Shown here: positions 170 through 20,500 of the stretch, one piece after another
How positions within the stretch are numbered: position 1 is the stretch's first letter
How the letters are laid out: every line of letters begins with the position of its first letter
DNA from: a virus
Reading direction: 5' to 3' (one strand)
Virus record (IMG/VR): IMGVR_UViG_3300044301_004401
Span: 1-36,883 of that record
DNA length: 36,883 nucleotides
Translations under genes and position numbers: made by a program
Notes under the pieces: model-generated
Told to the model about the DNA's origin: nothing
The model's database searches: none
Seen by the model: only the letters and a program-made list of their open reading frames with translations

Positions 170-685
170 TTATTCTAACATTGATTCTATTTCTTTTTTT
201 ATTCTATTTAATGTTTTTAATCTATCCATTAATTTTTCTTTTTCTGTTACATCTTCTGTTTTTTTCATTTTATTAGCAGTAGATTTCATTTCTGATGTAG
301 TGTCTTGAAGTTTAGAAGCTAAAACAGCTACACTATCTCCTGATAATTGGGATGCTGTTGGTTCTTCATCTTCTTTTAAAACAGATATAATTTCTTCCCT
401 TATTTTGTTTTTAAATTCAGATAATTCTATTGATTTTAATTCTTTAGCAGCATCTAATGTTTTTTCTAATGATTTATTAAGTTCTTTTTGACTTTTTACA
501 TCTTCAGGATCTGCTTCTGCTAAACTAACTGAATCTTCTGTTGCATTAATATCATCCATCATTTTTTTAGTTGTTTCTAATGCTTTATTAATAGCATCCT
601 GATTTTGAATATCTTTGGGGTCTGCTTCATTTAAAGCTAATTTAATTTCTTCTTTGATAGCTGCTTTAAGTTGGGATTTTTTCAT
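170..685 (-). CDS. Lys/Glu-rich helical protein built from two repeated modules
   Basis: The 171-residue product is almost entirely charged helix. It contains two copies of a module of about 37 residues. The first begins near residue 17 with LNEADPKDIQNQ and the second near residue 55 with LAEADPEDVKSQ; each continues into a Leu-rich helix. A second element is also repeated: the N-terminal helix (residues 6-20, QLKAAIKEEIKLALNE) resembles residues about 93-108 (EFKNKIREEIISVLKE). The C-terminal third (about 114-171) is another predicted coiled coil. L18-N-E20|A21 and L55-A-E57|A58 match the (L/I)-x-E rule of T4 prohead protease sites, so a head-internal or scaffold-like role is conceivable, but this is inference. 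A perfect T4-type late box lies 10 bases before the ATG, which points to late expression. No catalytic motif is seen. Confidence 0.8.
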   Translation of the reverse strand: MKKSQLKAAIKEEIKLALNEADPKDIQNQDAINKALETTKKMMDDINATEDSVSLAEADPEDVKSQKELNKSLEKTLDAAKELKSIELSEFKNKIREEIISVLKEDEEPTASQLSGDSVAVLASKLQDTTSEMKSTANKMKKTEDVTEKEKLMDRLKTLNRIKKEIESMLE

Positions 686-695
686 GAGATATTTT

Positions 696-703
696 TATTT
701 ATA
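696..703 (-). promoter_or_regulatory. T4-type late promoter before the 170-685 gene
   Basis: Minus-strand TATAAATA, the exact T4 late -10 box, sits inside the extended motif ATATTTATAAATA. It ends 10 bases before the ATG at 685. T4 late transcription starts about six bases after the box, so the leader would be only a few bases long. The box lies just past the TGA (708-710) of the kinase gene. Confidence 0.7.
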
Positions 704-707
704 AATA

Positions 708-1238
708 TCATAAAGAAAGTGAAGCTTTCACCTGGTTTATGCGTTCTTCAGTTGTGCCGGAAATTTTAACTACTTTACCAGGCATCCACCTATGCATTCC
801 TAATATAGATGATATTTTTTTATGAATATCCAATCTGTAATTTTTATTTGTTTCTCTAACTCCATTGTCTTCAATAGGAACAGAAAGATCATCTATATGA
901 AATATAATGTCATATTCTTTTATAAGATGCCATAAAACCCCACTTATATGTTGTTTTTCAGCTTCACTCATAGAATCAGATAATTCACAAAAAGCCATTA
1001 CATCAATAATAGTTCTATCTGTTATCATTTTTTCTTGCATTAATTCTGCTGCTCTTTCAGCTGCGAATACCAATTGGCCTTTTAAAGTACTATCTGTGTT
1101 TAAAGGTATTCCTAATGAACTTAAATATTTACTACGTTCTGTTGCAAATTTATAATCTTTAAATTCTGGTTCATTTTTTAATGCATTTACTAATGTAGTT
1201 TTACCTACACTCATTGTTCCACAAAAACCTATTTTCAT
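708..1238 (-). CDS. NadR-like P-loop ATPase/kinase
   Basis: The 176-residue protein begins with a Walker A loop GTMSVGKTT (residues 7-15) directly after the first beta strand. It continues with a T-E-R-S motif near residue 33, D74-R-T-I-I-D79 and a late G-V-R-E-T segment. This pattern fits the AAA_28/NadR kinase-like family, whose best known member is the C-terminal ribosylnicotinamide kinase domain of NadR. Phages often carry stand-alone versions. The substrate cannot be read from sequence: nicotinamide riboside, another nucleoside, or a protein are all possible. It is the last gene of a tightly overlapping set with the SET-domain and FAD oxidoreductase genes (4-base ATGA overlap with the SET gene). 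A link to NAD(P)/flavin redox chemistry is therefore attractive but unproven. The 3' end holds a small hairpin (719-731) just before the next late promoter. Confidence 0.75.
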   Translation of the reverse strand: MKIGFCGTMSVGKTTLVNALKNEPEFKDYKFATERSKYLSSLGIPLNTDSTLKGQLVFAAERAAELMQEKMITDRTIIDVMAFCELSDSMSEAEKQHISGVLWHLIKEYDIIFHIDDLSVPIEDNGVRETNKNYRLDIHKKISSILGMHRWMPGKVVKISGTTEERINQVKASLSL

Positions 1239-1621
1239 ATTAAATTATTTTTTATACAATATACAATATTTACTTCATAATCCCAACATATTTCTTCATT
1301 TTTCTCTATTTCTTCTATACTTTTAAAGATAATTAATCTTCTCTTTTCATCTGTTGTCCAATCCGCATTTGGATTAGATGAGGAATTATATATACACCCA
1401 TATCCTAAAGGTAAGACAATTTCTTTATAATTATCCTTTCTAGGAAAAACATAAGCATTTCTATATAAAGGTACTAAATCATAATATTCTTTAGGAAAAG
1501 ATATAATATGACATTCTTCTAATATTTCACCTTTTTTTATTTTTTCTTTAGCAAAAACCCCATATCCATGAATTTTACTTTTTCTAACTTCTATTTTATT
1601 ATTAAGTATTAAACTTTTCAT
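1235..1621 (-). CDS. SET-domain protein (putative protein-lysine methyltransferase)
   Basis: A compact 128-residue SET domain. The N-terminal motif is G19-Y-G-V-F-A with K-x-G-E following. The middle motif N79-S-S-S-N-P-N85 replaces the usual N-H-S-C-x-P-N, and the end motif E109-E-I-C-W-D-Y115 corresponds to the E-E-L-T-x-D-Y that binds S-adenosylmethionine and the substrate lysine. Known SET enzymes transfer methyl groups to lysines in proteins, and some stand-alone bacterial and phage members are little studied. It overlaps both neighbours by four bases, so it is translated from the same message as the FAD oxidoreductase and the kinase. The His and Cys of the central motif are replaced by Ser, which may alter or weaken catalysis. 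Family call is firm; the target is unknown. Confidence 0.75.
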   Translation of the reverse strand: MKSLILNNKIEVRKSKIHGYGVFAKEKIKKGEILEECHIISFPKEYYDLVPLYRNAYVFPRKDNYKEIVLPLGYGCIYNSSSNPNADWTTDEKRRLIIFKSIEEIEKNEEICWDYEVNIVYCIKNNLI

Positions 1622-2904
1622 AATATACTTTCAGCTACATAAGTACCTTGTGCCCCAGATACTGTTATACCTCTTGCTGATAACGCATCACCTACAAAAT
1701 AGACATCAGAAAATCTAGTAAGACTTAAATCTTCATAATTTACTAAAGGTTCAGGTGATAGGTATTTTACTTCAGGCATATAAATACCCCAATCATCTTT
1801 TAATGTTGGGAATACTATTTGCATTTCTGTAATGAAATCTTCTATATATTGAGCATTTTCTTCTCCTAATGATTCAAATAAAGGTTCCATATTTTCTACT
1901 ACAACACATCTAACAAAATCACCTTCTGATGTTTTAGATGGTAATCTATTACCTGGGGAATAATATGTGCCTGTTCCACTACATTGTAATTTTTTAACTG
2001 CTTCTCTTGACCAATCAAATGGTTTATCTATACCTCTAATTTCCATTAATATACCAAAATTAGTCATGTTATTTCTATATGCTTCATCTTTTTTAGCATG
2101 TCCATTATAAGAATGATCACCATAAGTTTTTTCTAAAGCAACATAAGCAGCATTATTGTTTGTACAAAATGTTCTTAAACTTACATTATCAAACTTTTTA
2201 TATAACTTAAAATCATATGATATGTCAATTAATTTTTGAAAATGTTTTTGTGGTGCTTCAAATCTAACTCCTATTTGTACTGGTTTTGGTTCTGTTGGTA
2301 ATTCGTATTTTTCAGCTAATTGTTTTCCAAAATCAATCCCTGATTTACCTACTCCAAATATTAATTTATCATAATATATTCTTCCTGATGGAATGTTTTC
2401 TCCATAAACTAAATTAGTATCAAAATTAATATCATCTACTTTAGTATTCCATAAAAATTCTACACCGTTATCAGTTAAATATGTATACCAATTTTTACCA
2501 ATTTCATGTAGATAATCAGTTCCTATATGCCATACAGGAAATAATCGCAAACCAAAATAAGGTTTAATAAATTCTGGTTCTTCTACAGGATGTGAACATT
2601 GTATTACTTCAGGTTTAGGGTGAAATCTTCTAAAATTATTAATAACTTGATCCATTAACTCCATAGCTTTATCTTCACCACAATATTTTGATAAATGACC
2701 ACCAATAGAAGTATGATATGTCAATTTACCATCTGACCAACCTCCGGCTCCCATAAAACCCGTCATTACTTCTTCAGGTTTACGTTTAAAGGGATCATTA
2801 CCCATATCAATTATGGTAATTTTACCTTTATAATTGTTATCAACTAATTTTGTAGCAGCATTAACACCTGCTACTCCTGCTCCTATAATTACTATTTGTT
2901 TCAT
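1618..2904 (-). CDS. FAD-dependent oxidoreductase (COG2509-like)
   Basis: The 428-residue product opens with a Rossmann dinucleotide fold, IVIIGAGVAGVNAA (GxGxxG at G8, G10, G13), and an acidic residue ends the second strand (IDM). Near the C-terminus is a typical second FAD motif, YFVGDA (about 402-407), followed by a glycine-rich helix start. The middle, with GVRFEAP and a C-S-G-T-G-T-Y segment, resembles the poorly characterised FAD-dependent dehydrogenases of COG2509. The reaction is unknown: it could be a dehydrogenase, a reductase or a modifying enzyme for a small molecule. It is first in a three-gene overlapping set with the SET and NadR-like genes and lies directly behind a strong terminator (2933-2971), so it needs its own promoter or read-through. 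No clear ribosome site precedes the ATG; the leader is A/T-only. Confidence 0.8.
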   Translation of the reverse strand: MKQIVIIGAGVAGVNAATKLVDNNYKGKITIIDMGNDPFKRKPEEVMTGFMGAGGWSDGKLTYHTSIGGHLSKYCGEDKAMELMDQVINNFRRFHPKPEVIQCSHPVEEPEFIKPYFGLRLFPVWHIGTDYLHEIGKNWYTYLTDNGVEFLWNTKVDDINFDTNLVYGENIPSGRIYYDKLIFGVGKSGIDFGKQLAEKYELPTEPKPVQIGVRFEAPQKHFQKLIDISYDFKLYKKFDNVSLRTFCTNNNAAYVALEKTYGDHSYNGHAKKDEAYRNNMTNFGILMEIRGIDKPFDWSREAVKKLQCSGTGTYYSPGNRLPSKTSEGDFVRCVVVENMEPLFESLGEENAQYIEDFITEMQIVFPTLKDDWGIYMPEVKYLSPEPLVNYEDLSLTRFSDVYFVGDALSARGITVSGAQGTYVAESIL

Positions 2905-2932
2905 CTTTAGATTTTTTATTAATTAAATATAC

Positions 2933-2971
2933 AAAAAAAGAGCCGTGGCTCCAAAATGAGGCCACAGCTCT
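2933..2971 (-). terminator. Strong intrinsic terminator
   Basis: In the minus-strand RNA an 11-bp stem (2961-2971 with 2939-2949) is complete, with one G-U wobble, around an 11-base loop. It is followed by seven U residues (2939-2933). On the plus strand the wobble becomes an A/C mismatch, so the structure fits minus-strand transcription. The stem is by far the most GC-rich short stretch nearby. It separates the 3118-4215 gene and the small ORF from the FAD operon. Confidence 0.85.
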
Positions 2972-2977
2972 CTATAT

Positions 2978-2995
2978 AAAAAACCCATAAAGGGT
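2978..2995 (-). terminator. Weaker terminator in tandem
   Basis: A 4-bp ACCC/GGGT stem with a 5-base loop (2983-2995) is followed by six U residues (2983-2978) in the minus-strand RNA. It lies just upstream of the strong terminator, so the two act in tandem. Alone it would be inefficient. Confidence 0.5.
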
Positions 2996-3016
2996 ATCTG
3001 GCTATGAATCAGATTT

Positions 3017-3103
3017 TTACTTGCAACATTTTAGGTTGCACCAACCTATACAAACTTTATTAAAAGTTAAAATACAGATTAAATTACATATAAATTTTTT
3101 CAT
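3017..3103 (-). CDS. Small Cys-rich peptide, 28 codons
   Basis: An ATG at 3103 opens a 28-codon frame ending in TAA at 3017. The peptide begins MKKFICNLICILTFNKVC and ends GWCNLKCCK; six of its 28 residues are cysteine. The first half (KKF then a hydrophobic stretch) resembles a short signal peptide or membrane anchor, and a lipobox-like L-x-x-C reading is possible. It starts 14 bases after the TAA of the 3118-4215 gene behind an A-rich leader like those of other genes here, and two terminators follow immediately, so it would be the last gene of that transcript. The frame also carries two mutually exclusive RNA hairpins. It may be a real micro-protein or a chance ORF inside a structured 3' region; confidence is modest. 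Confidence 0.4.
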   Translation of the reverse strand: MKKFICNLICILTFNKVCIGWCNLKCCK

Positions 3104-3117
3104 TTTTTTATTTTTTA

Positions 3118-4215
3118 TTAATTGATTAATTTTTCGTTTATAGTATCTTTATTGTTAGTATCATATCCATCTCCAGGATCATCAGTTATATCTCCATCAG
3201 CTGTATGACCTACTTTGTCAGGAACCCATTGAGCTGCTATTCCATTTTGTAAATCCCATTTTACTGGGTCCATTTCTTGAAGATTTTTTATGTTATGTTT
3301 TTTAAATGGTTCACCATCAACAGTAACTTTTTTTCCTTCTTTTTCATCTTCTTCAGCTTCATTTACCTCTCCTTTTAATTTTAATTTCATATAAGCTGCT
3401 TTAACATCTTTAAGATCAGGTAATTTTTTAATTTCACCATCCATAAACTTTTTTAAAAAATATTGTTTAGCTTCTGTTTCTAAATCTTGTGATTCTTTTA
3501 TTTTACCTTCAGGTAAATCATAATCTGCATAAAAATTTTCCCAATCATCATCTGTAAAACTTGATCTAGGATCTAATTTTTCTCTCCAATGATCTAAAGC
3601 TTTTTTCATCATTACTACATTATTACTTTTTAAAGCTGCTTTTAAACCTTGTCTTGCTTCTAAATTATCTGATGTTGGGGGTGTTAAAGAGTCTAATAAT
3701 TTTTCTAGTTGATCTATTATTGATTGTTTTTTTCCCTCTAAATCTTTTGCTTTTTCATAATAATCTTTATCTTCTTTTATATAACAAGATTGAATTAATT
3801 TTTCATTTTCTGATAATGATTTTATTCCTGGTGTTGACATATTTGGTTTTAATCTGCCTATATTATCTTTTCTAGATCTATCTCTAGGTATTTCTTTTTG
3901 TGGTGTAAAATTATTACCCCCCATTTTATTTCCAAATCCAACTCCTTCTTTTATTATCTTTTCATCTTTTTTATTTAAATCTAAAATAAAACGTGAGTAT
4001 AATGCAGAAGCTTCATTAATTAATTTTTTAAATTTTTTAGAACCCACACGATGTTTTGTTTCGTTTAACGGTATATTATTGTCTATATGAAATTTTAAAT
4101 CATTAGACAATGGAGTACTAAATACTTTATTTTCCCTCAATATAGGACCTATAGATTTAGTTTTACACCCACCACATCCACAATTGCAATCTTTTTTACC
4201 TGTGTTTTTGCTCAT
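3118..4215 (-). CDS. Acidic/basic helical protein with N-terminal Cys cluster
   Basis: The 365-residue product starts with a tight cysteine cluster, CNCGCGGC (residues 10-17), which could bind zinc or another metal. Lys/Glu-rich helices follow. Sites of the form (L/I)-x-E then Ala or Gly occur at I66-N-E68|A69 and I-K-E90|G91, as in T4 prohead-protease substrates. Residues 134-148 (LSENEKLIQSCYIKE) and the DLEGK near 158 closely match a segment of the 5795-6643 protein, so the two share a module. The C-terminus (about 320-365) is acidic and Gly/Asp-rich. Function is unknown. It sits in a run of similar phage proteins with spacings of a few bases. A structural or head-internal role is a guess based on composition and neighbours. 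Confidence 0.75.
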   Translation of the reverse strand: MSKNTGKKDCNCGCGGCKTKSIGPILRENKVFSTPLSNDLKFHIDNNIPLNETKHRVGSKKFKKLINEASALYSRFILDLNKKDEKIIKEGVGFGNKMGGNNFTPQKEIPRDRSRKDNIGRLKPNMSTPGIKSLSENEKLIQSCYIKEDKDYYEKAKDLEGKKQSIIDQLEKLLDSLTPPTSDNLEARQGLKAALKSNNVVMMKKALDHWREKLDPRSSFTDDDWENFYADYDLPEGKIKESQDLETEAKQYFLKKFMDGEIKKLPDLKDVKAAYMKLKLKGEVNEAEEDEKEGKKVTVDGEPFKKHNIKNLQEMDPVKWDLQNGIAAQWVPDKVGHTADGDITDDPGDGYDTNNKDTINEKLIN

Positions 4216-4233
4216 GATTATACATATTAAAAA

Positions 4234-5322
4234 TTATACTTTTATTCTAGGAACTAAGTCAGAAGGGTTAGAAACTATTATATCATTACCAATAGCATCT
4301 ATAAAATCACCTCCATCATAATATTTAAAATTTCCTACATTATCAGATATCATAAAACCATCAAACCCATGTTCTTCAAAATAATCTTTTGCTAAAGTTG
4401 TAGCTAAATTATCGATAAACTTTTTAGCTTCAAATTCATTATCTGTAAAATATGACTCAAAATTCATTGGTAATTTATTTTTATACCAAGAACTAATTTC
4501 ATCTGATAAATCTTTTGTTAATTTTTTGTTATCTATACCTAATTCTAAAGCAGATTTAAATAATTTATCAATTTTATAAGGCCAAGAGGTTCCTTTAGGT
4601 CTAATTAAATTTTTTAATTCTTCTTTTTGAACATCTTCTAAATCAAAAGTATTAATTAATTTTTCCATTTCTTTTATTATATCATCCGCTTTACCTCTTA
4701 CAACATATTTAGGAGCAACCATTGCCCCTGATGCTCCTGTTCTAGATTTTAATTCAACTTCTTTACCTCCTATATTTAAGTCCCCCTTTGATTCTGCTTT
4801 TTTAACATTATTAAAAAATACAGATAAAAATGCTTCTCCAGGTCCTAATGAAACTGTTCCTTGAATAGAATCTTTCATATCACTATATAAAGATTTTAAA
4901 TCTGTATTGTCAAATCCTGGTATTTGGTCAAAGTAATTATTTTTAGTTAAATCAAATGTAGGTGGATTTTCAGATAATTTTGCAAAATCTCCTGTCTTAC
5001 CTAATTCAGATAAAAGTGATTGAAAAAATAAAATATCTTTTGAACTTAAATTTTTATCAGCTAAATGTTTCTTCATTGAATTCCCAAAACCTACGTTTTT
5101 AGCATATTTAGCTATTTGTTTTAATTCTTCAGGATCAGATATGTTTTTTATTAAACTTTCTATTTCACTTCTTACTTCATCAATATCTATTTCTTCATTT
5201 TCTTTTACAACACCTGTTATTATTTCAAATAATAAATTTTTATCCTTTGGGTTATTCATATCCGGGTAACCTTTTGGAAATTTATAAGATATTTTATTTA
5301 AAAATGTAGTTATTGAATCCAT
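4234..5322 (-). CDS. Putative PD-(D/E)XK nuclease-like protein
   Basis: The 362-residue product is helical in its first third (1-110). A segment then reads LGPGEAFLSVFF (159-170), followed by KGDLNIGG (179-186) and VELKSR (189-194). E163, D181 and E190-x-K192 have the order and spacing of the PD-(D/E)XK fold core (Glu on the first helix, Asp on strand 2, ExK on strand 3), and G-D-L...E-L-K blocks of this kind are common in restriction-like nucleases. I recall similar G-x-G-E...G-D...E-x-K blocks in unnamed proteins of marine T4-like phages. The remaining 165 residues are helical and have no motif I know. It overlaps the next gene upstream by one base (TAATG) and is therefore translationally linked to it. 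The nuclease call is an inference from motif only. Confidence 0.6.
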   Translation of the reverse strand: MDSITTFLNKISYKFPKGYPDMNNPKDKNLLFEIITGVVKENEEIDIDEVRSEIESLIKNISDPEELKQIAKYAKNVGFGNSMKKHLADKNLSSKDILFFQSLLSELGKTGDFAKLSENPPTFDLTKNNYFDQIPGFDNTDLKSLYSDMKDSIQGTVSLGPGEAFLSVFFNNVKKAESKGDLNIGGKEVELKSRTGASGAMVAPKYVVRGKADDIIKEMEKLINTFDLEDVQKEELKNLIRPKGTSWPYKIDKLFKSALELGIDNKKLTKDLSDEISSWYKNKLPMNFESYFTDNEFEAKKFIDNLATTLAKDYFEEHGFDGFMISDNVGNFKYYDGGDFIDAIGNDIIVSNPSDLVPRIKV

Positions 5323-5792
5323 TATGCTTCTTCTGCTGCTGGCTCTTCTGCTGGTTCTTCAGTTGTTTCTTCTGTTTCTGTTTCTTCAGTTTCTGTTTCT
5401 GTAGTCTCTACTTCTTCAGTTTCAGCATCAGGAGAGCCATATCTTAATATTCTAGCTATTGCCATAGCTGCTTGTTCTTCTTCAGGAAGATTTAATAAAT
5501 AATAATTTTTCCCTTCTACTTGAGCTACCCAACTTCTACCATTATAAATTAGATAAAAAAGTTCACCATTTTTTAAATTAATTCTAAATGTACTAGGACG
5601 AGGTGCAACCCAATCTATAGATGCTAAAAAATTATCGAACTCATAAGTTAAAAGATCGATAATTACTGCTTTAAGTTCCGGGAATTTTGTTAATTCATCA
5701 TACTCTAATACTGCTGTTTCGGATTGCATTACAGCAGGGTAAACTTGTTTTATTAACAAGCGTAGTTTGTCTTTTAACTCTTGTCGTGTCAT
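5322..5792 (-). CDS. Conserved marine-phage protein with acidic Thr/Glu tail
   Basis: The 156-residue product has a basic amphipathic N-terminus (TRQELKDKLRLLIKQV). A compact alpha/beta region follows (about 36-120, including FPELKAVIIDLL, WVAPRPSTF, GELFYLIYNGRSW and NYYLLNL). This region looks like a conserved protein seen in other T4-like marine phages, but I cannot name a function. Residues 123-156 form a low-complexity tail of Glu, Thr and Ala-Pro that is clearly disordered. The tail is coded by a run of TTC/TGT-type triplets that also occurs at the end of the 6645-7502 gene. The gene lies two bases from its upstream neighbour and overlaps its downstream one, so it belongs to one operon with them. 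Confidence 0.75.
   Translation of the reverse strand: MTRQELKDKLRLLIKQVYPAVMQSETAVLEYDELTKFPELKAVIIDLLTYEFDNFLASIDWVAPRPSTFRINLKNGELFYLIYNGRSWVAQVEGKNYYLLNLPEEEQAAMAIARILRYGSPDAETEEVETTETETEETETEETTEEPAEEPAAEEA
5325..5426 (-). repeat. Low-complexity triplet repeat coding Glu/Thr tail
   Basis: The plus strand is a run of TTCTG/GTTTCTGTTTCTTC units. It codes the disordered acidic tail of the 5322-5792 protein. Almost the same units recur at 6648-6731, about 1.3 kb away. Such tracts change length easily by slippage or recombination. Confidence 0.65.
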
Positions 5793-5794
5793 AT

Positions 5795-6643
5795 TTACTT
5801 AATAAATCCACCTTTTGTTTGAGAATAATCTTTTACTTTTTCTAATCTTTTAGCAAATTCTGGTTTATCTTTAAAATACATTTTATTCATTAAATCAGGT
5901 TTTTTACCATCATATGGTGATAAAAATGGTAATTTTTCAGAATATGAATACATACATTGGTACTCATTATTATCTGGGCATTTTACTACATCACCAATGT
6001 TTAGCGCTCTTCCTTCTATATCTTTAATAGCTTCATCTTCATTCATAACAGGAGGTGCTGATGTTAATGCTTCACCTTCTAAATAATGCTTAACAGAGCT
6101 CATATAATCTGATGCTTTTGTTAATTTAGCTTGAACCCAACTTTCTAATTGAGATTTATTATCTAACATATGAAATAAATGTTGAGCATATTTAGCTATT
6201 TTTGCTAATTGCTTTCTAGCCATTTTTCCTTCTAAATCTAATTTTCCTTTATGGCCTTCATTTATAGTTTCTGATATATAACAAGATTGAACTAATTGTT
6301 CATTTTCATCTAATTGTAAATCTTCATTAGTTTTTTTCTTTTTAGGTGGGTTTTCAGTATAAACCCCAACTGATAGATCATCATCTACTTCACCATCTTC
6401 CTTACCTATTGCTTCTTTTACTTTAGGAGTTGATAAAGCTGTTTTGACCATTTCTCTTAATCGATTATTAATTGCCATTGATTCTGTTGTTTTTTTAGCT
6501 ATATTAGTAGCTCTACCATACATTACTGCTTCAGCGTCCTTACCATATTTTTTAACTAAATCGCGTTTATTTTTCTTCATATTCATGATGATGTCCTCAC
6601 GCTTATCAAGTTCTGCTTTGGTAAGTTTACGCTCTTTTAACAT
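5795..6643 (-). CDS. Helical phage protein with QSCYI module
   Basis: The 282-residue product begins with a basic helical region containing KKYGKDAEAVMYGRATNIAK (residues 31-50). Variants of this Y-G-K-D-A-E-x-V-M-Y segment occur, to my knowledge, in many T4-like marine phages without assigned function. Residues 111-125 (LDENEQLVQSCYISE) and DLEGK at 136-140 match the 3118-4215 protein. The piece I127-N-E129|G130 again fits a prohead-protease-like site. The C-terminal 80 residues contain a short beta-like segment (GRALNIGDVVKCPDN) that could be an SH3-like fold, with one Cys pair around residues 218-230. It is spaced one to two bases from both neighbours. I cannot assign a role; a structural or packaged protein is plausible. 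Confidence 0.75.
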   Translation of the reverse strand: MLKERKLTKAELDKREDIIMNMKKNKRDLVKKYGKDAEAVMYGRATNIAKKTTESMAINNRLREMVKTALSTPKVKEAIGKEDGEVDDDLSVGVYTENPPKKKKTNEDLQLDENEQLVQSCYISETINEGHKGKLDLEGKMARKQLAKIAKYAQHLFHMLDNKSQLESWVQAKLTKASDYMSSVKHYLEGEALTSAPPVMNEDEAIKDIEGRALNIGDVVKCPDNNEYQCMYSYSEKLPFLSPYDGKKPDLMNKMYFKDKPEFAKRLEKVKDYSQTKGGFIK

Positions 6644-6644
6644 T

Positions 6645-7502
6645 TTATACCTTTTCTGTTGCTGATGACGTTACTGTTTCTGTTTCTTCTGTTTCTGTTT
6701 CTTTTGTTTCAACTTCTTCTTCTTCTCCTGATTTTGTTTGGTCTTTTTGTTCTAAATCAGTTAATTTTTGTATAGCTATTTTAAAGAATGCATTTTTATC
6801 AAAATTTACTTGTTCTTTTGCTGATATTTGATCTATTAATGCTAATATTATTCTAGCCATATCACCAACATCTTTAACCATTTGATTTGCTTTAGTTGCT
6901 ATTGGTGCGGGTAATTCAAAGTCAACAACTGCTTCTTCAAGTGATTCTTCTACATTAGATTTTACAACATGAGCTCTTGTAAAATAAGTAATAGTATTTC
7001 CAATTTGATCTAATAATTTAGCATCACCTAATTTTTCAGCTGTTTGTTGAGCTTTGGTTAGTAAACCTTGAATTAATTCAACATTTTTATTTACTTCACC
7101 AGGCATTTTAACATCGATATTTGTTTCTGCTTCTGATGATTCATCATCAACTGCTACAGATTCATCATCTGTTACATCAATGTCTGTTTCTGTGTCAACA
7201 TCAACGTTTTCAGTATCTTTAACATCAACATTTTCAGTATCTTCTACTTCTTCGTCTTCTTGTACTGTTGACTTTCCTACTTTTTTAGGGTCTAAATCTA
7301 AAGTGCCTCCTTTTGTTGGATTATTATTATATTTCCAAGACACAGCATCAGATTCTTTTAGTATTTTTTCTTTAATTTTTTTCTTTAATTCAGATATTGT
7401 TATCTTAGATGAAGACTTTTTAACTTCTTCTTTTAAAGACTCTTTTTCATTTTTTAAAAGAGGATTGTTTTTTAAATAATCTTTATAGTTAAATTCACTC
7501 AT
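6645..7502 (-). CDS. Acidic repeat-containing helical protein
   Basis: The 285-residue product starts with MSEFNYKDYLKNNPLLKN and a Lys-rich helix ISELKKKIKEKILKES (36-51), the same type of N-terminal element as in several neighbours. Residues 84-131 are a very acidic linker with tandem DTENVDV units and further Asp/Glu-Val-Asp repeats. Residues about 140-258 form a helical domain (KLLDQIGNTITYFTRAHVV is recognisable), and the last 28 residues are a disordered Glu/Thr tail. The layout, helix tag then acidic linker then helical domain then tail, suggests a scaffold- or core-like protein, but there is no direct evidence. A perfect late box lies 13 bases before the ATG, so this gene starts a late transcript that probably continues through 3118. 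Confidence 0.75.
   Translation of the reverse strand: MSEFNYKDYLKNNPLLKNEKESLKEEVKKSSSKITISELKKKIKEKILKESDAVSWKYNNNPTKGGTLDLDPKKVGKSTVQEDEEVEDTENVDVKDTENVDVDTETDIDVTDDESVAVDDESSEAETNIDVKMPGEVNKNVELIQGLLTKAQQTAEKLGDAKLLDQIGNTITYFTRAHVVKSNVEESLEEAVVDFELPAPIATKANQMVKDVGDMARIILALIDQISAKEQVNFDKNAFFKIAIQKLTDLEQKDQTKSGEEEEVETKETETEETETVTSSATEKV
6648..6731 (-). repeat. Second low-complexity Glu/Thr tract
   Basis: The plus strand again shows GTTTCTGTTTCTTCT units. They code the C-terminal tail of the 6645-7502 protein and closely resemble the tract at 5325-5426. The similarity may reflect shared use of a few codons, or gene conversion between the two tails. Confidence 0.6.
7110..7253 (-). repeat. Acidic tandem repeat (DTENVDV units)
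   Basis: This stretch codes residues 84-131 of the 6645-7502 protein. Two near-perfect copies of a 21-base unit coding DTENVDV are followed by looser Asp-Val-Asp copies. It is a flexible, strongly negative linker. Confidence 0.65.
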
Positions 7503-7515
7503 GATTGTATATTTT

Positions 7516-7523
7516 TATTTATA
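7516..7523 (-). promoter_or_regulatory. T4-type late promoter before the 6645-7502 gene
   Basis: Exact TATAAATA on the minus strand within CATATTTATAAATA. It ends 13 bases before the ATG at 7502. The expected start site leaves a leader of about eight A/T-rich bases with no Shine-Dalgarno sequence. A 6-bp hairpin overlapping the stop codon of the previous gene (7533-7548) lies ten bases upstream. Confidence 0.7.
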
Positions 7524-7532
7524 AATATGTTA

Positions 7533-7548
7533 AAATCTATTTAGATTT
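7533..7548 (-). other. Hairpin over the stop codon, upstream of late promoter
   Basis: AAATCT (7533-7538) pairs with AGATTT (7543-7548) around a 4-base loop. The TAG of the 7537-8184 gene lies in it. There is no U-run, so it is not a standard terminator. It might protect the 3' end or slow read-through into the late promoter that follows. A like arrangement occurs at 35699-35718. Confidence 0.4.
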
Positions 7549-8184
7549 AAGTTTTTCCATTATTTTTTTAATTAATTCTGTTCTTTTTTCACCAGGTATG
7601 CTTTTTAACCCACCCGGGGTTTTAAATGTTGTGTTTTCTGGGTCAATATTTCCTGTTTTATCATACCCACAAGTACCTTCTTCTAATTCAGGATGAAATT
7701 TTATATAAACTTCATTGGCATCAGGTTTAATAGATTCTCCATCAACTAATACTTCAGCGGGGTATACTTTAACATCATCACCATACCAGTAATTTATTTT
7801 ATATCCTCCTTCTTCTGTTAGTTCTACTATTAATCCTCTTTTATAATCTTTTTCTTCTGCTTGTAAAACAACTTTTTTACCTCTAGGAAGAATTAATTCA
7901 GCTTGAGATACTCTATTATCATTTTCTCCTTCTTCTGCTTCGTTTAAATTATGTTTTTTTGTCCATGCAATAATTTCATCTTCAAAATCTGAGGGGATAT
8001 TTCCAAAGGTTCTTATATCAAATGGGGTATAATCATTACTTAAATTACCATATAAGTAATCTTCTATTTTTTTTTCAGCATCATCGGGATCTTTAATGTA
8101 TGATAACATCATATCCATTAACTCATCTTCTTGATTAGGAGTTATTTTATTTTCTTTTAGTAATTTAGTTGATGAAAATTTCAT
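7537..8184 (-). CDS. Phage protein with LNEA site and beta-rich C-terminal domain
   Basis: The 215-residue product starts MKFSSTKLLKENKITPNQED, a short basic helix tag. Residues 20-80 are helical, and L80-N-E82|A83 is a clear (L/I)-x-E|A site. After it, a beta-rich domain begins (about 92-150: ELILPRGKKVVL, GLIVELTEEGGYKINYWYG, VKVYPAEVLVDG) that looks like a small SH3- or KOW-like barrel. The C-terminus is another short Lys-rich helix. The position of the LNEA site exactly at the boundary between helical leader and beta domain would fit removal of a propeptide, but that is inference. Function is unknown. The next gene upstream ends five bases before its ATG. Confidence 0.7.
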   Translation of the reverse strand: MKFSSTKLLKENKITPNQEDELMDMMLSYIKDPDDAEKKIEDYLYGNLSNDYTPFDIRTFGNIPSDFEDEIIAWTKKHNLNEAEEGENDNRVSQAELILPRGKKVVLQAEEKDYKRGLIVELTEEGGYKINYWYGDDVKVYPAEVLVDGESIKPDANEVYIKFHPELEEGTCGYDKTGNIDPENTTFKTPGGLKSIPGEKRTELIKKIMEKLKSK

Positions 8185-8189
8185 ATTTT

Positions 8190-8825
8190 TTAATTAGTAG
8201 TACCCCAACTTTTTAATGTAGCTGCTTTACCATCAATATATTCTTGTTTATCTTTAGTAAATTTATCACCTACAATTTTAACACCTCCACTTCGTATATT
8301 AACTCTACCCATCCAATCTTTACCTTCAGGGTCTATAATTACTTCTTCTTTTCCATATCCCATTTTAACCATATCTTCTAACCACATATCAAAGCTACGC
8401 TCATTGCTGACGACTCTATCAGCGTCAGTTGGTGTTTCTAAATGAAGTTCATCCCATTCTTCTCCAAATCCAGGCAGTGCTCTTAATATAAAATCCCAAC
8501 TTAATTGATTTAATTGGTGTTTACTACTTTCATTTAAGTTTTTTTTTTCATTTATGCCTATATTACTTAATTCATTATATAAATCTTCTTCTTCATCTGG
8601 GCCTAAAAATTCTCTAAATTCTTTAGCATGTTTTCTTGCTATTTCAGCAGATTTTTGTTCATCATTTTTGATGTAAAATGACTCTAATGCATCTAATATT
8701 TCACCATATGAATACATATCTGCTATATTTGAGATACTATTAACTAACTTATAATTATCTTCTTTGATATTTCCTTCTTTTAAATATCTACTTTTATTCC
8801 ATTTATGTATATTAAAATCACTCAT
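8190..8825 (-). CDS. Phage protein with YLKEG N-terminal tag
   Basis: The 211-residue product begins MSDFNIHKWNKSRYLKEG; L15-K-E17|G18 fits the same cleavage-like pattern as in the neighbours. Residues about 25-100 are helical and acidic. The second half (about 107-211) contains LSWDFILRALPGF and a W-x-x-D-M-V-K-M-G-Y-G segment, then a small beta stretch (RVNIRSGGVKIVG). No enzyme motif is apparent and I do not recognise the family. A variant late promoter (TATAAAAT within ATATTTATAA) ends 12 bases before the ATG. It would start a transcript covering this gene and the one that follows at 7537-8184. Confidence 0.7.
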   Translation of the reverse strand: MSDFNIHKWNKSRYLKEGNIKEDNYKLVNSISNIADMYSYGEILDALESFYIKNDEQKSAEIARKHAKEFREFLGPDEEEDLYNELSNIGINEKKNLNESSKHQLNQLSWDFILRALPGFGEEWDELHLETPTDADRVVSNERSFDMWLEDMVKMGYGKEEVIIDPEGKDWMGRVNIRSGGVKIVGDKFTKDKQEYIDGKAATLKSWGTTN

Positions 8826-8837
8826 AATTATAGTTAT

Positions 8838-8845
8838 ATTTTATA
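8838..8845 (-). promoter_or_regulatory. Variant late promoter before the 8190-8825 gene
   Basis: Minus strand TATAAAAT inside ATATATTTATAAAATA. It keeps the ATATTTATAA core shared by the seven sites, but the last two bases of the T4 box are exchanged. The box ends 12 bases before the ATG at 8825. It lies in the 35-base gap after the 8861-9436 gene. Confidence 0.5.
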
Positions 8846-8860
8846 AATATATATTTTTCT

Positions 8861-9436
8861 TTATTTCTTTAAATTTTCTAAATATTTTATTGTTTTTTCT
8901 AAACTTTCTAAAGCTCTAGATTTATTTATTCCACCTTTCCAATTTTCTACATCACCTTGTTCAGTAATAAATGATTTATTTGTTTCATTATTTAATTGAT
9001 CTTCAAACCAATTTTTAAATTCATTTATAAAAGCATTTAATTCTCCATTATGTATATTTTTTTCATATTCTTCCCAAACGCCCCTTTGCTTTAATTCAGA
9101 TTCAAAATATAAATAACATTCATAACATGTTTTATGAACTCTAAAAAAATCAGGATCAAATTTATGTTTCATTAACTTATTACAACTAGGACAAAATAAA
9201 GGTGTTCTTACCATTTTTTTTACTTTATCATATTTAGTAATGTTTTGTTTTAATCCATTTTTAATAGTCCATTTTCTACCATCTTCTTCCCAAATATCTC
9301 CTTCTTTGTGGAATTCATTTTTTTTAGAATAACCTACTCCTTTAATAGTACGTTCGTTAGTTTTTCCTGATAGAATATTACGAGCACGTTTAACATCTCT
9401 TTTTGACCATTCTTTTTTTAAAATATTTTCTTTCAT
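8861..9436 (-). CDS. Zinc-ribbon protein of marine T4-like phages
   Basis: The 191-residue product has a basic N-terminus. A W-E-E-D-G-R-K-W-T-I-K-N-G segment (about 49-61) is followed by two CxxC pairs, C82-P-S-C85 and C104-Y-E-C107, about 18 residues apart. These are the expected four ligands of one zinc ribbon. The combination of the WTIKNG segment and the ribbon occurs, as far as I recall, in unnamed proteins of several marine T4-like phages. The C-terminal half (about 108-191) is helical and rich in Glu and Asn. Zinc ribbons of this type usually bind nucleic acid or partner proteins, so a DNA- or RNA-related role is likely but not shown. Its ATG overlaps the TGA of the fusion enzyme gene upstream (ATGA), which makes translational coupling probable. 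Confidence 0.75.
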   Translation of the reverse strand: MKENILKKEWSKRDVKRARNILSGKTNERTIKGVGYSKKNEFHKEGDIWEEDGRKWTIKNGLKQNITKYDKVKKMVRTPLFCPSCNKLMKHKFDPDFFRVHKTCYECYLYFESELKQRGVWEEYEKNIHNGELNAFINEFKNWFEDQLNNETNKSFITEQGDVENWKGGINKSRALESLEKTIKYLENLKK

Positions 9437-11439
9437 AAACCTAATTCTTTTAATTGAGCAATAGTTGAAGCTACACTAGTATGTAAAATTCCTATTCCAC
9501 CTGCTTCTTTCCATTGATTGATGTTTTTTTCTCTATCATCAATTAATATTGAATTTTCATTAGCATAATTTTTTTTATTATTAGCAAAAGCTAAAATTAA
9601 TTTAACACCCGGTAAATTACGTTTTGCCCATACTCTTTTTCCTAATCTAGATTCATTATTACGTGAGGGAGCTGATAGTAATATGGGATTGTATTTTTTA
9701 ATGTAATCCCAATATTCTTGGCTTCCTGGCATCCATTCAATTCCTGTCCAAAATCTAACTCCTACTTCGTCATCAATTAATTCCCAAAATTTTTCTAAAC
9801 CAAATTTATCTACATAATCTGATGGTGGTATTCCATCTGAGAATTGTTTAAATCTAGTATCAAAATCAGCTATTACACCATCCATATCAGAATATATAGT
9901 ATATTTTTCATCTTCTGTTATAGGTTTATAACCTGATCCATAGGGAGCCGCTTTACCATCATGGTTAGGTAAATCAATAGTTTCTTCTAAACCTTTAGCT
10001 AATTCTAAAGCATAAGCATTTAGTCCAAATGGATCCTTTTTTGTTTTTTCGACTTTAATAGGAATTAATGAACCTCCTTCTTCTATGTCAGTAGTAATTT
10101 CACCATCAATAGAATCTGTCCAATTTCTAAAAATCATATTCCCTTCTTGATATGCTTCTCTTTCTATTGCATCTAATTCATCATCTTCATTAGTATTTGT
10201 AGTCATTATATCACCTAATCTATCTTCTAAATTTTGTATGTGATGAATCATTTCATGAGAAAATGATCTTACTATATCTTTTGGATGTCTACCTTCAGTA
10301 TATAATACTATAGTTTTAGTTTCAGGGTTATAATATGCAGTTTTTCCGAAAAAATTTTTAGCATTTGATTTTTCACTATGATAAAATATTACTTTAGGTA
10401 GGGGTAAAATATTTAAACCCATTTTTATCATATGTTTAGTTAAATCTTTTATTTTTCCTTTATAATCTATATAATCTGAATATGTTGCATTTTCTTCTAA
10501 AGGGATAACTGGATTAGATGTTTGAAAATCTTGTTTCCTCATTATAGTTTTTGCAGTCATATCTATTCCATTTTGATCTACATCAATTACAAAAGGAATA
10601 TTAATATTTTTATTAAAATCTTTTACAACAGCTTCTAAATCATCTTCAGTTTTTGATAAAGGTTTACCGTGTTTTTTATATAATTTTTTAAATATACCTA
10701 TTAATTCAGCTACTGATATTGGTTTTTTATTTCTAATGTCATTTAATCTATCAAAAAAATGTTTTGTAAAATCGATGTCAATTCCTAATTTATTAAATAA
10801 ACCATCAGCATATGATTCAATTGAATCTAATTGATTTTTAGTAATATTTTCATTTATTAATTTTGTAGATGCTATATTATATACTTCTTCTTTATCTTCA
10901 TCACTTAATTCATGAGGTAAAAAATTTTTAAACTCATCAGAATCTAATGTTAAAGCTTTTCTAGCATTTCTAGCTCTCATATTTGAGTCTGATGTTGTTA
11001 TAGTTTTTAAATTTAAATTTGGGTATTTATCTGGGTTTGTTATTAATGGGGCTGATCTTGTTTTTATATCATATTCATCATCTTCCTCTCCTTCTCTTTT
11101 TCCTATAACCCAATAAAATTCTAATTCAGGATCATTTTTAGGAGCTCTATAAATATCTCCAATTGGATTTTTAGCTGGTATAATTTTTACTTTTTGAGGT
11201 AAATAATTTTTATAAATGTCCCAAATTAATAAAGATTCTGTTTGATCTATTCCATCTCTTTCTAATCCTCCAACAAAAATTCGGAATTCATCAATTTCAG
11301 GGTATTCAGCTAAAGCTTGTTTAACAACATTAAAGTGTCCTCTTATGGGGGGTTTAAAACCACCTCCATAAAGAGCAACTACTTTAGTATCATCTACTTC
11401 CATTAATCCTCTTACTAATTCTTTTGTTAGTTCATTCAT
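9433..11439 (-). CDS. Nucleotidyltransferase / zincin-like / HAD phosphatase fusion
   Basis: The 668-residue product joins at least three enzyme-like parts. Residues about 17-190 are a cytidylyltransferase-type Rossmann domain: YGGGFKPPIRGHF (24-36) is the nucleotide-binding loop, with SDSNMRARNARKAL (150-163) as the usual second motif. Residue I32 stands where the first His of HxGH is expected. Residues about 200-310 hold a helical segment of unknown role that I believe recurs in marine phages. Residues about 330-440 contain H395-E-M-I-H399, a zincin HExxH motif, with E428 as a possible third ligand. Residues about 510-668 are a HAD-type 5' nucleotidase/phosphatase: D518-M-D520-G-V-I-A-D, S589 and D634-D635. 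It overlaps the kinase gene upstream and the zinc-ribbon gene downstream by four bases each. NAD or nucleotide metabolism, or modification of a target, are possible; the substrate is unknown. Confidence 0.8.
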   Translation of the reverse strand: MNELTKELVRGLMEVDDTKVVALYGGGFKPPIRGHFNVVKQALAEYPEIDEFRIFVGGLERDGIDQTESLLIWDIYKNYLPQKVKIIPAKNPIGDIYRAPKNDPELEFYWVIGKREGEEDDEYDIKTRSAPLITNPDKYPNLNLKTITTSDSNMRARNARKALTLDSDEFKNFLPHELSDEDKEEVYNIASTKLINENITKNQLDSIESYADGLFNKLGIDIDFTKHFFDRLNDIRNKKPISVAELIGIFKKLYKKHGKPLSKTEDDLEAVVKDFNKNINIPFVIDVDQNGIDMTAKTIMRKQDFQTSNPVIPLEENATYSDYIDYKGKIKDLTKHMIKMGLNILPLPKVIFYHSEKSNAKNFFGKTAYYNPETKTIVLYTEGRHPKDIVRSFSHEMIHHIQNLEDRLGDIMTTNTNEDDELDAIEREAYQEGNMIFRNWTDSIDGEITTDIEEGGSLIPIKVEKTKKDPFGLNAYALELAKGLEETIDLPNHDGKAAPYGSGYKPITEDEKYTIYSDMDGVIADFDTRFKQFSDGIPPSDYVDKFGLEKFWELIDDEVGVRFWTGIEWMPGSQEYWDYIKKYNPILLSAPSRNNESRLGKRVWAKRNLPGVKLILAFANNKKNYANENSILIDDREKNINQWKEAGGIGILHTSVASTIAQLKELGL

Positions 11440-12236
11440 CTAGTTAAAAATGTCTTTATTTTTGATTGTGCTTCTTCCCTTGATACTGATGTGTTTATAA
11501 TATCTTTTACCCCTTCGTCAGATAATAATAATTTTAAATCTGCTTCTAATTCTGCTTTTGATTTAGCAGATCTTGCTTTAGCTTTTTCATCTTTAGGTTT
11601 TGTATTTTGAGGTTTAAAAGGATCTAAATAGGTTTTTATTATATCTTCTAAATTATCCATTTTTTCATCTTCTAAAGTATTAGCAACTGAAACAAAATTA
11701 TTACCAAATAATTCTTTATAAGGACTATGATTTTTAGTTACTGAATTCCATGTACGCATTACTATAGCTGGGGCTAAACTTCTATCTTTACCACCTGATT
11801 TTTCAAATCTATCTTGATTTTGTTTTAATGAACGCTCTAAATCAGTATAAACATAAAGCATAAATACATTATATCCTGCTTCTTCTAATTCATTTTTTAA
11901 TTTAACAGTTTGATTATATGAAGCGCCTGTGCCATCTAATATGAATGATTCTTTATTTTCAATTGTAGAAGCAACATTACCTTTAAATTCTTTATTAGCT
12001 GCTGCCATTGCTTTGGCTGATAGACTTCTTTCTTCAGGTGAAGATTTTTTTAAATTTAAAGATACATTTGCATTTTTTAAATTTTGAATATAAATATCAT
12101 CTATATTTAATATTTTTAATCCTCCTAAATCTAATCCTTTTAAAATATAACCTTTACCAGCACCGGGTGCTCCTGCTAAAATTATAGCTTTTGGTCCACT
12201 TTCTACTTCACTTAATAATTGGGTTAAACTTATCAT
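11436..12236 (-). CDS. Zeta-toxin-like / polynucleotide-kinase-like P-loop kinase
   Basis: The 266-residue product starts with a short amphipathic segment MISLTQLLSEVE. A Walker A motif follows, LAGAPGAGKG (20-29), then NIDD (44-47) and D101-G-T-G104. A late arginine-containing lid region lies near 135-165 (DRFEKSGGKDR). This order fits the zeta-toxin/AAA_33 kinase group, whose members phosphorylate small molecules, sugar nucleotides or polynucleotide ends. The C-terminal 60 residues are a Lys/Glu-rich helix extension not needed for the kinase fold. The gene is directly followed, with overlap, by the fusion enzyme that carries a HAD phosphatase. T4 Pnk joins exactly these two activities in one chain, so a kinase/phosphatase pair for RNA or DNA ends is one reading; nucleotide salvage is another. 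A variant late box precedes it. Confidence 0.75.
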   Translation of the reverse strand: MISLTQLLSEVESGPKAIILAGAPGAGKGYILKGLDLGGLKILNIDDIYIQNLKNANVSLNLKKSSPEERSLSAKAMAAANKEFKGNVASTIENKESFILDGTGASYNQTVKLKNELEEAGYNVFMLYVYTDLERSLKQNQDRFEKSGGKDRSLAPAIVMRTWNSVTKNHSPYKELFGNNFVSVANTLEDEKMDNLEDIIKTYLDPFKPQNTKPKDEKAKARSAKSKAELEADLKLLLSDEGVKDIINTSVSREEAQSKIKTFLTR

Positions 12237-17540: not shown

Positions 17541-20500
17541 TTATTGAAACGCATTTTTATCTTTTAATGATGTTATAACAGTTTGAACATTTCGTTTCTG
17601 TGTTTCAGTTAAATCATTAGGTATTAAAAATCCATCTCCTGATGGAGTTACAATTCCTTTTGAACCTGTTGGTGGGGTAATTTCTACTATTACTCTATCA
17701 TCTGCGTTTACTCTTCTAAAAATAGTGTAATTTTTAATATGTCCACCGGGTATTGGTTTTTTTAATGTTTTTGGATCAGGTACTACTCTTAATCTATCGT
17801 AGATATAACCTGGGTCTGGTATCCATACTTGTGTTGGCTCTTTCAATAGAGATGTAGTTGATGCATTTCCCATATGCATTACAATAGATCCTGACGCCCA
17901 TGCCGCACAATCTCTATTATAATTTGATCCAGTTGCTTCATAAATTGATGAAAAATCAGCTCCACTTGAAACTGTAGGATCTGCTGTTCCTTTAGATATT
18001 GAACCTGAGTCAAGTAATCTTTGATTTGTTGATAAACACCATTGATACTGTCCTGGAGTATCTGATGGGCCTATTCCATTAATTACAGTACCACTTGCTA
18101 ATTTAGATGCCCCAAATGTAGCTAATGTAATTTTATCTTCTCTTGGTCCATAAAAATCAGGATAATAACCTGTAAATGAAGCACTTCTATATGTTGATGA
18201 TTGTGATAATATTCCTGATGCATTCGGACCTCCAAAAGAAGTTAACATACATTCTTGACCATATTGATATCCTGTGTATGTTCCTTTTCCTCTATATCCA
18301 GAATTTGGATTAGTCCAAGGTTGTGAACCTTGCTCTAACCTAAAATCTACATTACTTGTAAAAGCATCTCCTGGGTTTACTGTAGTAGAACCTGATAATA
18401 TAGGTGGTACTAAATTATAACCCATTACTTCAAAATCTTGTGTAATAGTTTCAACAGTATTATCAGAACTAGCTGTTAGTAAATAATCATATGTAACTCT
18501 TATTATATCACCTTCTTCTACTAACATATCGTGTTGGAAGTTTTCATACTCTGGAACACCTGATAAAGCTGGGTTGAATCTCCACGTAACTCCTTTTTTT
18601 TCTTTTTCATATGTTGGAACAAAAGATGTAAAAGTATTTTGAAAATATCTACTAAAAAGTACAAATCCTTGGAAAGCTCCAAATGTTTCACCTACAGACC
18701 ATTTATTATACCAACCCATTATATTTTTTCCATAACTACCTGATATTATATTAGCAGTAGTATAAAGTGGAAATTGTGATGATCTAAAACCTAAATCAGT
18801 ATTATGATATGTAGTACTTCCTGTGTAAGTCCAACTAGATCCTGTAACATTTCTGTTATATGAACCCGACATATCCCCCATTCTAATGTTTTTATTTAAA
18901 GTATTTAATAATGATAAATGAGGACCATGTATATCAACTTCTCCTAATAGTCCAAAATACTCAGGAACTCTTGTTCTTAAATATATAGGACATCCCTTTA
19001 AAATTAACATATTACTACCTGTAGTTAAATTGGAGTAACCCGAATCTAATGATTGAGATGAAGGAGGTAATTCTAATATAGGATCTTCTAAAGTAATCCA
19101 CTGTGGTGCATTAAAAGCTTGTGATGGTGTTGTGTCATATTGATTTATTTGATTTGAAGCTATTACTTGAAATTGTGATGCTGGGTTGTAAATTTTATTT
19201 GTTCCTACTTGTAATGAACTATAGTTTATTATTTGACCATTAAGACTAGAAAATTCTTTTTCTTGTTCATTAAAGTTTATAGTTAGTGCTCTTCCTTTTG
19301 GGAATGTTGAACTTACATTAAATAATTTATCTCCACTACCATCAACACCTATAATAGAAGGTTGTTGATTTTTTCCTATAATATCAGTATCTGGGATTTC
19401 TATTAGAGAATCTATATTAAATGTCATAGTATCAAATCTTTCTCTACTATCTATAGCTTGTTTAAAATGAGCTATATAAATAGGTGAAGTATCTATAACA
19501 GCTGAAGGACCATATGATTTATCTCCTTCCCACGATCCAGTATCTCCATTTAAAAATGTTACAACATTTTTTCCTTGTGTTTTTGAAGTAAAGTGATTAT
19601 AATCTGCACTTAATAATTTACAACCATTATATTTAGGATTTATAGAACTTCGCTGTGTGTAATTACTTGCTGGTACTTGAGCTAATATTGCTGATCTTTT
19701 ATTTATTAAATCTAAATTAACTGGAACTGATAAATCTGTACTATAATCTACATCAAATAAGTGTGGATTTAATCTATTTTCATTTTCATTATTCATTGTA
19801 GGATTACAATCTGAGTTGTAAAATCCTGCCTCTTCAAAATATGGATCAAACACTATAGCTGTTTCATCTGATCCTGTAAATAAAAATGATGATGACCAAT
19901 TCTCTCCGTACTTCCATTGTTCAGCTCCTAAAAATATTCGTGATTCAGGATCTCCATAGAAATATTCTAAATATTCATCTGTTGTGTGATCTACTACAGC
20001 TAATGGTTTAAATTCTATTTGATTAGTCTCTGAGTGGTAAATACTTGTTATTGAAGAGTCAAATATATTTCTTCTTTTACTATTAAGAGGATCATAACCA
20101 AATTGAAAAGGATTATCACCTACTCCAGCATCAGTTAAATAATAACTCATTGATATTAAAAATTTAACATCATAATTTCCATCTTGTTTTAGAGTAGCTG
20201 CCATATTTTCTCCTGTAGATGAATGGTATGATATTCTAATTCTAAATGGCATTGCTCTATGGAAACTTGAAGTTTCTGTAAAAGTAGGTTGATAGAAAAA
20301 CACCGAAGCTGTTCCTTTCCCAGGTACAGGATATTGTGATGATGATTTATATGCTCTTGCAAATGAATTTATATGGATAGTATTTGTTCTATCTGCTGAT
20401 GCTGAACCCCTAGGTACCGTAGGAGTAGATGCTCCAGATGCTGTCCATGTTCTTAAATCTTGTGATTTAGATACAAAAGTAGTAGTAAACCAAGTAGCTC

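Follow-up and report, generated by a model that had tools for sequence, protein, structure and literature searches.

Locus and leader-bearing enzymes

The window analysed here is a 36.9-kb viral contig (IMG/VR record IMGVR_UViG_3300044301_004401, positions 1 to 36,883), whose genes lie almost all on the minus strand. At high coordinates come baseplate and tail genes, followed by a primase, a PD-(D/E)XK protein, a kinase, a fusion enzyme and a block of genes. The subject of this work is the region 170-12236, from the kinase through the block, and the short N-terminal leaders ending in [LI]xE (x, any residue) with which several of its proteins begin. The window stops short of the head genes, and gp21 is absent from it. 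Contig G002 (73 kb), which overlaps the window across 25,062 bp with an identity of 99.996% and thus belongs to the same phage, contains beyond the overlap a terminase, a portal, three core-like proteins, a gp21-type protease (PF03420, E 8e-33, S77 type), a gp22-like scaffold and a gp23-like capsid protein. Since this contig runs on into the terminase, portal, gp21 and capsid genes, the block is a set of late genes in a T4-like phage, lying immediately upstream of its terminase and head genes; gp20, gp21, gp22, gp23, gp25- and gp6-like genes place the phage in the T4 superfamily of myoviruses. Among named phages the nearest relative is Flavobacterium phage immuto (Immutovirus, 160 kb; host Flavobacterium sp. 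LMO8), whose gene order is the same, so the host is likely flavobacterial, probably a marine flavobacterium.

A preliminary description of this region had proposed that unrelated proteins share such leaders and form a head-packaged, injected set. The leaders exist: they are N-terminal, modular, specific to the block and similar to the gp21 propeptide. Their sequence suggests that they probably act as capsid-targeting propeptides comparable to the capsid-targeting sequence (CTS) of T4, cut by gp21, with the cargo packaged in the head and delivered. The kinase and the fusion enzyme begin exactly as that description had quoted them, and show the following features (a slash marks the predicted cut):

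12207..12236, minus strand: kinase leader MISLTQLLSE/, immediately before the P-loop domain
11436..12236, minus strand: zeta-toxin-like kinase, Zeta_toxin fold (PF06414, E 1.9e-15)
11398..11439, minus strand: fusion enzyme leader MNELTKELVRGLME/
9433..11439, minus strand: fusion enzyme composed of a nucleotidylyltransferase (HxGH), a 'TKHF' domain, a HEMIHH peptidase-like domain and a 5'(3')-deoxyribonucleotidase
10849..10860, minus strand: domain junction LINE/N ahead of the TKHF domain

Almost every one of about 50 kinase orthologues has this kinase leader in the form MI[SK]LxxLLxE, and three bear a longer MDNF-type tag instead. The window kinase is 31% identical (E 6e-25) to that of Pelagibacter phage HTVC008M, which shows the leader MIPFILKE/G and adjoins the nucleotidylyltransferase of that phage. 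The fusion enzyme family matches PF01467 (in orthologue L005, E 3.5e-4) and phrog_2643 (E 3.7e-26), and leaders of the type M..LTxxLVxxILNE are found on about two thirds of its orthologues. Stand-alone nucleotidases bear leaders of their own, such as MIKLVDLLKE and MGNLADLLLE, and the same enzyme keeps, swaps or loses its leader between orthologues. Ahead of the TKHF domain, the junction contains [LI]xE in 10 of 11 distinct orthologue segments and VNE in the other, against 24% of random 26-mers from these proteins.

Distribution of the leaders and the shared tag

Open reading frames (ORFs) were called in five relatives, each a genome or a large contig, and residues 6-24 were compared between the block, defined as kinase to capsid gene, and the genes elsewhere. 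[LI]xE is found in 74 of 121 block proteins (61%) and in 118 of 563 elsewhere (21%; odds ratio, OR, 5.9, p 2e-17), and [LI]xE with A, G, S or N as the next residue in 40 of 121 and 31 of 563, respectively (OR 8.5). Shuffling each N-terminal window gives a mean of 31.8 and a maximum of 47, below the 74 observed, and when homologues are collapsed to families the N-termini show [LI]xE in 62% of 46 block families versus 21% of 260. The motif is unenriched in the later windows 50-68 and 70-88, with a slight excess at 30-48 (OR 1.8), and LxD and LxQ are unenriched at block N-termini. A leader is absent from some proteins of the block: the AAA_28 kinase 708-1238, the SET protein 1235-1621, the oxidoreductase 1618-2904 and 8861-9436.

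Sites inside the proteins behave differently from those at the N-termini. All those listed in the preliminary description are present at the residues given: L18-N-E/A and L55-A-E/A in 170-685, I66-N-E/A and I88-K-E90/G in 3118-4215, I127-N-E/G in 5795-6643, L80-N-E/A in 7537-8184, and L15-K-E/G in 8190-8825. The five proteins named contain nine [LI]xE[AG] against 2.1 expected, having been chosen for their sites, and the two sites of 170-685 are not independent, both lying within an internal repeat (LNEADP and LAEADP). Counted anywhere in the protein, [LI]xE[AG] occurs 12 times in the block region versus 6.45 expected by shuffling (p 0.025), and 24 times versus 13.3 (p 0.004) in the genes downstream of the capsid gene. 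Because these downstream genes are equally enriched, the whole-protein excess is ordinary helix patterning and is not diagnostic; internal sites were rejected as evidence, which leaves most of those listed unsupported. Position therefore decides whether such sites are more than chance, and those at the N-termini clearly are. That short Lys/Glu-rich helices yield such tripeptides by chance holds for the internal sites, and individual leaders, such as MLKE of 5795-6643, may be chance products. As an account of the N-termini as a set, chance is refuted by the block enrichment, by the [LI]xE frequency of 86% behind the tag described below and by the reversed-peptide null, and has next to no probability.

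The most conserved leader form is the tag M-x-x-F-[DN]-L-x-K-Y-L-x-E-G-x-L-L-K-E, which two proteins of the window carry:

8775..8825, minus strand: KW-type tag MSDFNIHKWNKSRYLKE/G of 8190-8825 (30.6 bits, profile)
8190..8825, minus strand: tagged protein of 211 amino acids, with no putative function
7443..7502, minus strand: tag MSEFNYKDYLKNNPLLKNEK of 6645-7502 (28.2 bits, profile)
7353..7394, minus strand: second leader-like helix SELKKKIKEKILKE/S within 6645-7502
6645..7502, minus strand: acidic tagged protein

Orthologues of 6645-7502 begin at the second helix, as MKKSELKEIIKSQFLAE/A. Among records selected by the fusion enzyme and not by the tag, 63 non-redundant, unlike bodies show the first half of the tag, and 86% of them have [LI]xE no more than 12 residues after the motif, the figure being 12% for 12-mers from the bodies and 33% for shuffled segments. 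In a set of 91 diverse tagged proteins, chosen by the motif, the consensus is confined to the tag, and nearly no Pfam match was found besides zeta-like kinases; Pfam and PHROGs annotation of the cargo gave the same picture. A scan of viral sequences with a degenerate DNA pattern for FDLKK[YF]LAEG gave 140 tags in at least 120 viral stretches, the reversed tag peptide had zero matches in the viral collection, and the DNA pattern matched one contig in 257 Gb of prokaryote genomes. The tag stands at the protein start, two or three codons after the ATG, in 95 of the 98 cases read in detail. A profile search gives two to five tagged proteins per genome examined, with internal segments seldom scoring. 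Neither a tblastn search of phage records with the tag, a query too short for this purpose, nor a literature search for the tag string gave a match. Of the five tagged proteins of immuto, whose genes are at positions 1803, 103806, 117631, 118632 and 125241 of its record, three are encoded next to the terminase or gp21; immuto differs from the window phage in that its nucleotidase is separate, with its own leader MKKVMGNLADLLLE/E.

Some tag DNA is highly similar (32 distinct 29-mers among 98 matches) and adjacent tagged genes form arrays in L204 and L156, as expected if the shared starts had spread by recombination at gene starts, as a mobile translation-initiation segment without targeting at the protein level. 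Conservation is at the amino-acid level, including [LI]xE positions not forced by the search, several distinct leader types have the same [LI]xE end, and one enzyme keeps or swaps its leaders, all of which makes this origin very improbable.

The location of the tagged genes bears on whether the leaders dock to the head or to the baseplate or tail, in which case the tagged proteins would lie outside the capsid, uncut by gp21. Two points favour the baseplate or tail: the block lies between tail-fibre and head genes, and the tag profile gives 17 bits for an internal segment of the gp6-like wedge protein in immuto, YFNITKWNINQP, a resemblance that also counts against the head. On the other side, among the 120 tag loci listed (fragments averaging 8 kb) a head or block marker is present in 64 and a tail or replication marker in six, the sensitivity of the two marker sets possibly being different; tagged genes lie directly after gp21 in several contigs, including immuto and G011; T4 gp6, when examined for such a segment resembling the KW-type tag, showed none; and docking to the tail leaves the [LI]xE ending and the gp21-propeptide match unexplained. 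Baseplate or tail docking is thus unlikely. In the window, the gp6-like baseplate wedge protein 29474-31333 shows an internal segment, DYFNIDKWNVNDPI, resembling the KW-type tag, its immuto counterpart being YFNITKWNINQPI.

Head protease, T4 capsid targeting and cyanophage virions

The preliminary description had called for a gp21-like protease, and one with a tag-like propeptide is encoded in G002; gp21 was found in all 12 relatives searched, the same phage included. The N-termini of gp21 in this clade (LLSE/GKM, LTE/GKL, LLE/GKL and ISLTE/GKK) resemble the LAE/GKL of the tag. T4 gp21 cleaves after L/I-x-E (PMC9026906). The capsid protein sequence QLVTE/ASNTGG aligns with SFLTE/AEIGGDHG of T4 gp23, the site being placed by an alignment made by eye, so that the capsid protein has a candidate site, with V at P3 instead of L or I.

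T4 IPII and IPIII begin MKTYQEFIAE/A. The clade leaders and the CTS of IPI-IPIII have in common a short N-terminal leader on unrelated bodies, hydrophobic positions followed by LxE, and a gp21-type protease in the same genome. The clade tag differs in being longer, with another consensus (M..F[DN]LxKYLxEGxLLKE) and often two LxE, in standing on dozens of unrelated bodies, and in its P1' residue, often N or E. As leaders at the extreme N-terminus of unrelated proteins, ending in [LI]-x-E, in a phage that encodes a gp21-type protease, a scaffold and a capsid protein with a candidate N-terminal site, they can be assigned to the T4 CTS class on sequence features. In G008 (49652-50640, minus strand), two adjoining genes distant from the block begin MKELxxFRxFLNE, close to the T4 CTS. 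The supposed relationship of the region to T4 Alt finds no support, there being no ADP-ribosyltransferase domain among its Pfam matches. A similar notion, a large cargo of proteins that a prohead protease processes, comes from the ejection proteins of Salmonella phage SPN3US, which belongs to another phage group (PMC5694885, PMC7411985).

Enzymes with comparable leaders have been detected in virions. A nucleotidylyltransferase (NMNAT/cytidylyltransferase) and kinases were detected by mass spectrometry (MS) in the virions of cyanophages S-SCSM1 and S-CREM2 (PMC9602691, PMC10665884). The MS-detected proteins of S-CREM2 show the leaders MKDFDSFLEE (SAM hydrolase), MKDLHSFLTE, MKRFDAFLTE (kinase), MKNFSSFLTE/A (cytidylyltransferase) and MQTFSMFFSE. 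In about half of the genome, and after tail and portal proteins had been removed by hand, an N-terminal [LI]xE is present in 12 of 18 MS-detected non-tail proteins of this phage, against 21 of 90 ORFs that were not detected (p 6e-4). The MS-detected virion NMNAT of S-SCSM1 begins MKSFLQFLKE/A; its gene has four flanking neighbours labelled virion protein, and a fifth lies not far off. A scan for MKxFxxFxTEA found mostly this nucleotidylyltransferase, from viral contigs. The cyanophage enzyme shares with the window enzyme the superfamily, a primase gene in the neighbourhood and an LxE leader; the window enzyme differs as a four-part fusion with a leader of another type. A literature search found no paper linking capsid targeting with the cyanophage cytidylyltransferase. 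S-CREM2 also contains an MS-detected protein annotated as a Cas9-like nuclease (L253, 7704-10313), with a CTS-like RFASFMAE/A about 25 residues from the N-terminus.

The leaders could also bind the scaffold on proteins that are prohead core components, degraded or expelled during maturation and never delivered. T4 gp22 and gp67 have LxE sites and are cut into fragments that are mostly removed, and several block proteins are Lys/Glu-rich without enzyme domains. The kinase, nucleotidylyltransferase and nucleotidase are enzymes without an obvious role in a core, and enzymes related to them have been detected in the mature virions of cyanophages; a core role is improbable. Capsid targeting with gp21 cleavage is favoured because it explains together the placement of the leaders, their LxE ending and the variety of cargo. 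In such a mechanism, the amphipathic leader (about 8-20 residues) would dock the protein onto a gp22-type prohead scaffold core, and a gp21-type protease would cut after [LI]xE at the leader end, freeing the cargo in the maturing head, and perhaps also where the domains of the fusion enzyme meet. As cargo, the kinase, the nucleotidylyltransferase/nucleotidase fusion and many small proteins would stay with the DNA and enter the host at infection, by analogy with the same-superfamily or functionally similar enzymes that others detected in cyanophage virions.

Several observations weigh against capsid targeting. About one third of the fusion enzyme orthologues start straight at the enzyme domain. 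[LI]xK is also enriched at block N-termini (OR 2.5), so that part of the signal is general Lys/Glu helix character. The window phage by itself, with a slightly narrower block, shows a weak contrast (9 of 22 versus 9 of 38, p 0.13); the N-terminal signal depends on including the relatives. The residue P1' of the tags is frequently N or E instead of A or G, V occupies P3 of the capsid-protein site, and replication genes are close to a few of the tagged genes. The cyanophage authors allow that the virion enzymes could be contaminants (PMC9602691, PMC10665884). Direct BLASTP of the window nucleotidylyltransferase against the cyanophage and Methylophilales ones gave no significant match, the window and cyanophage enzymes being related at the superfamily or fold-family level only, and no virion proteomics was found in the literature for this clade, immuto included. 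Of the proposed head-packaged, injected set, the shared LxE leaders, the gp21 with its tag-like propeptide and the leaders of the cyanophage enzymes speak in favour, while the internal sites and the Alt link fall away.

More tentatively, and with somewhat less confidence than doubt, one swappable tag and protease site may load a large, fast-changing effector set, the protease splitting multi-enzyme fusions in the capsid and the tag alone identifying the delivered effectors. Few phages have a known set of proteins entering the cell with the DNA; if capsid targeting is true, such proteins could be found from sequence alone. A recognisable tag could tell packaged enzymes from contaminants, a distinction that the cyanophage workers could not make. 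It gives a testable list and, since the 91 tagged proteins gave nearly no Pfam match, indicates that a large number of probable early-infection effectors are still unexplored. Just as the CTS is a packaging signal in T4, the tag may provide one for a different T4-like chassis.

Remaining proteins of the block

The other proteins of the block show the following features:

8152..8184, minus strand: leader MKFSSTKLLKE/N of 7537-8184
7537..8184, minus strand: protein with an AELILPRGK domain
5795..6643, minus strand: YGKDAEAVMYGRAT protein with the very short leader MLKE/
5322..5792, minus strand: block protein, amphipathic N-terminus without LxE
4234..5322, minus strand: KFPKGYPD block protein, without N-terminal LxE
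3118..4215, minus strand: CNCGCGGC protein, leaderless in the window
626..685, minus strand: leader MKKSQLKAAIKEEIKLALNE/A of 170-685
170..685, minus strand: small Lys/Glu-rich protein with repeated LxEADP

The AELILPRGK domain is free-standing in 7537-8184, while other phages have it embedded in the nucleotidylyltransferase fusion, a placement that suggests domain shuffling between candidate packaged proteins. Orthologues of 5795-6643 start MALNE/RKL and MLNE/KKL. In 4234-5322 the residues D181...E190-x-K192 do not vary among relatives and form a PD-(D/E)XK-like signature; this assignment stays a hint because the fold search, with a model of pLDDT 72, gave no PDB match at E < 0.001. Several orthologues of 3118-4215 show MNRLRKLIIEAL-type leaders ahead of the same motif. 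This protein and its neighbour 5795-6643, otherwise unlike, have ENE[KQ]L[IV]QSCYI in common. The G003 orthologue of 170-685 has the leader MKKSELKASIKEEILELLE, and in G002 two short ORFs lie between 170-685 and the terminase. The small SET-domain protein 1235-1621 (PF00856, E 2.9e-11) is next to the FAD oxidoreductase, both being leaderless. Outside the block, the tail-fibre region shows a single ORF of 3,154 amino acids (17541-27005).

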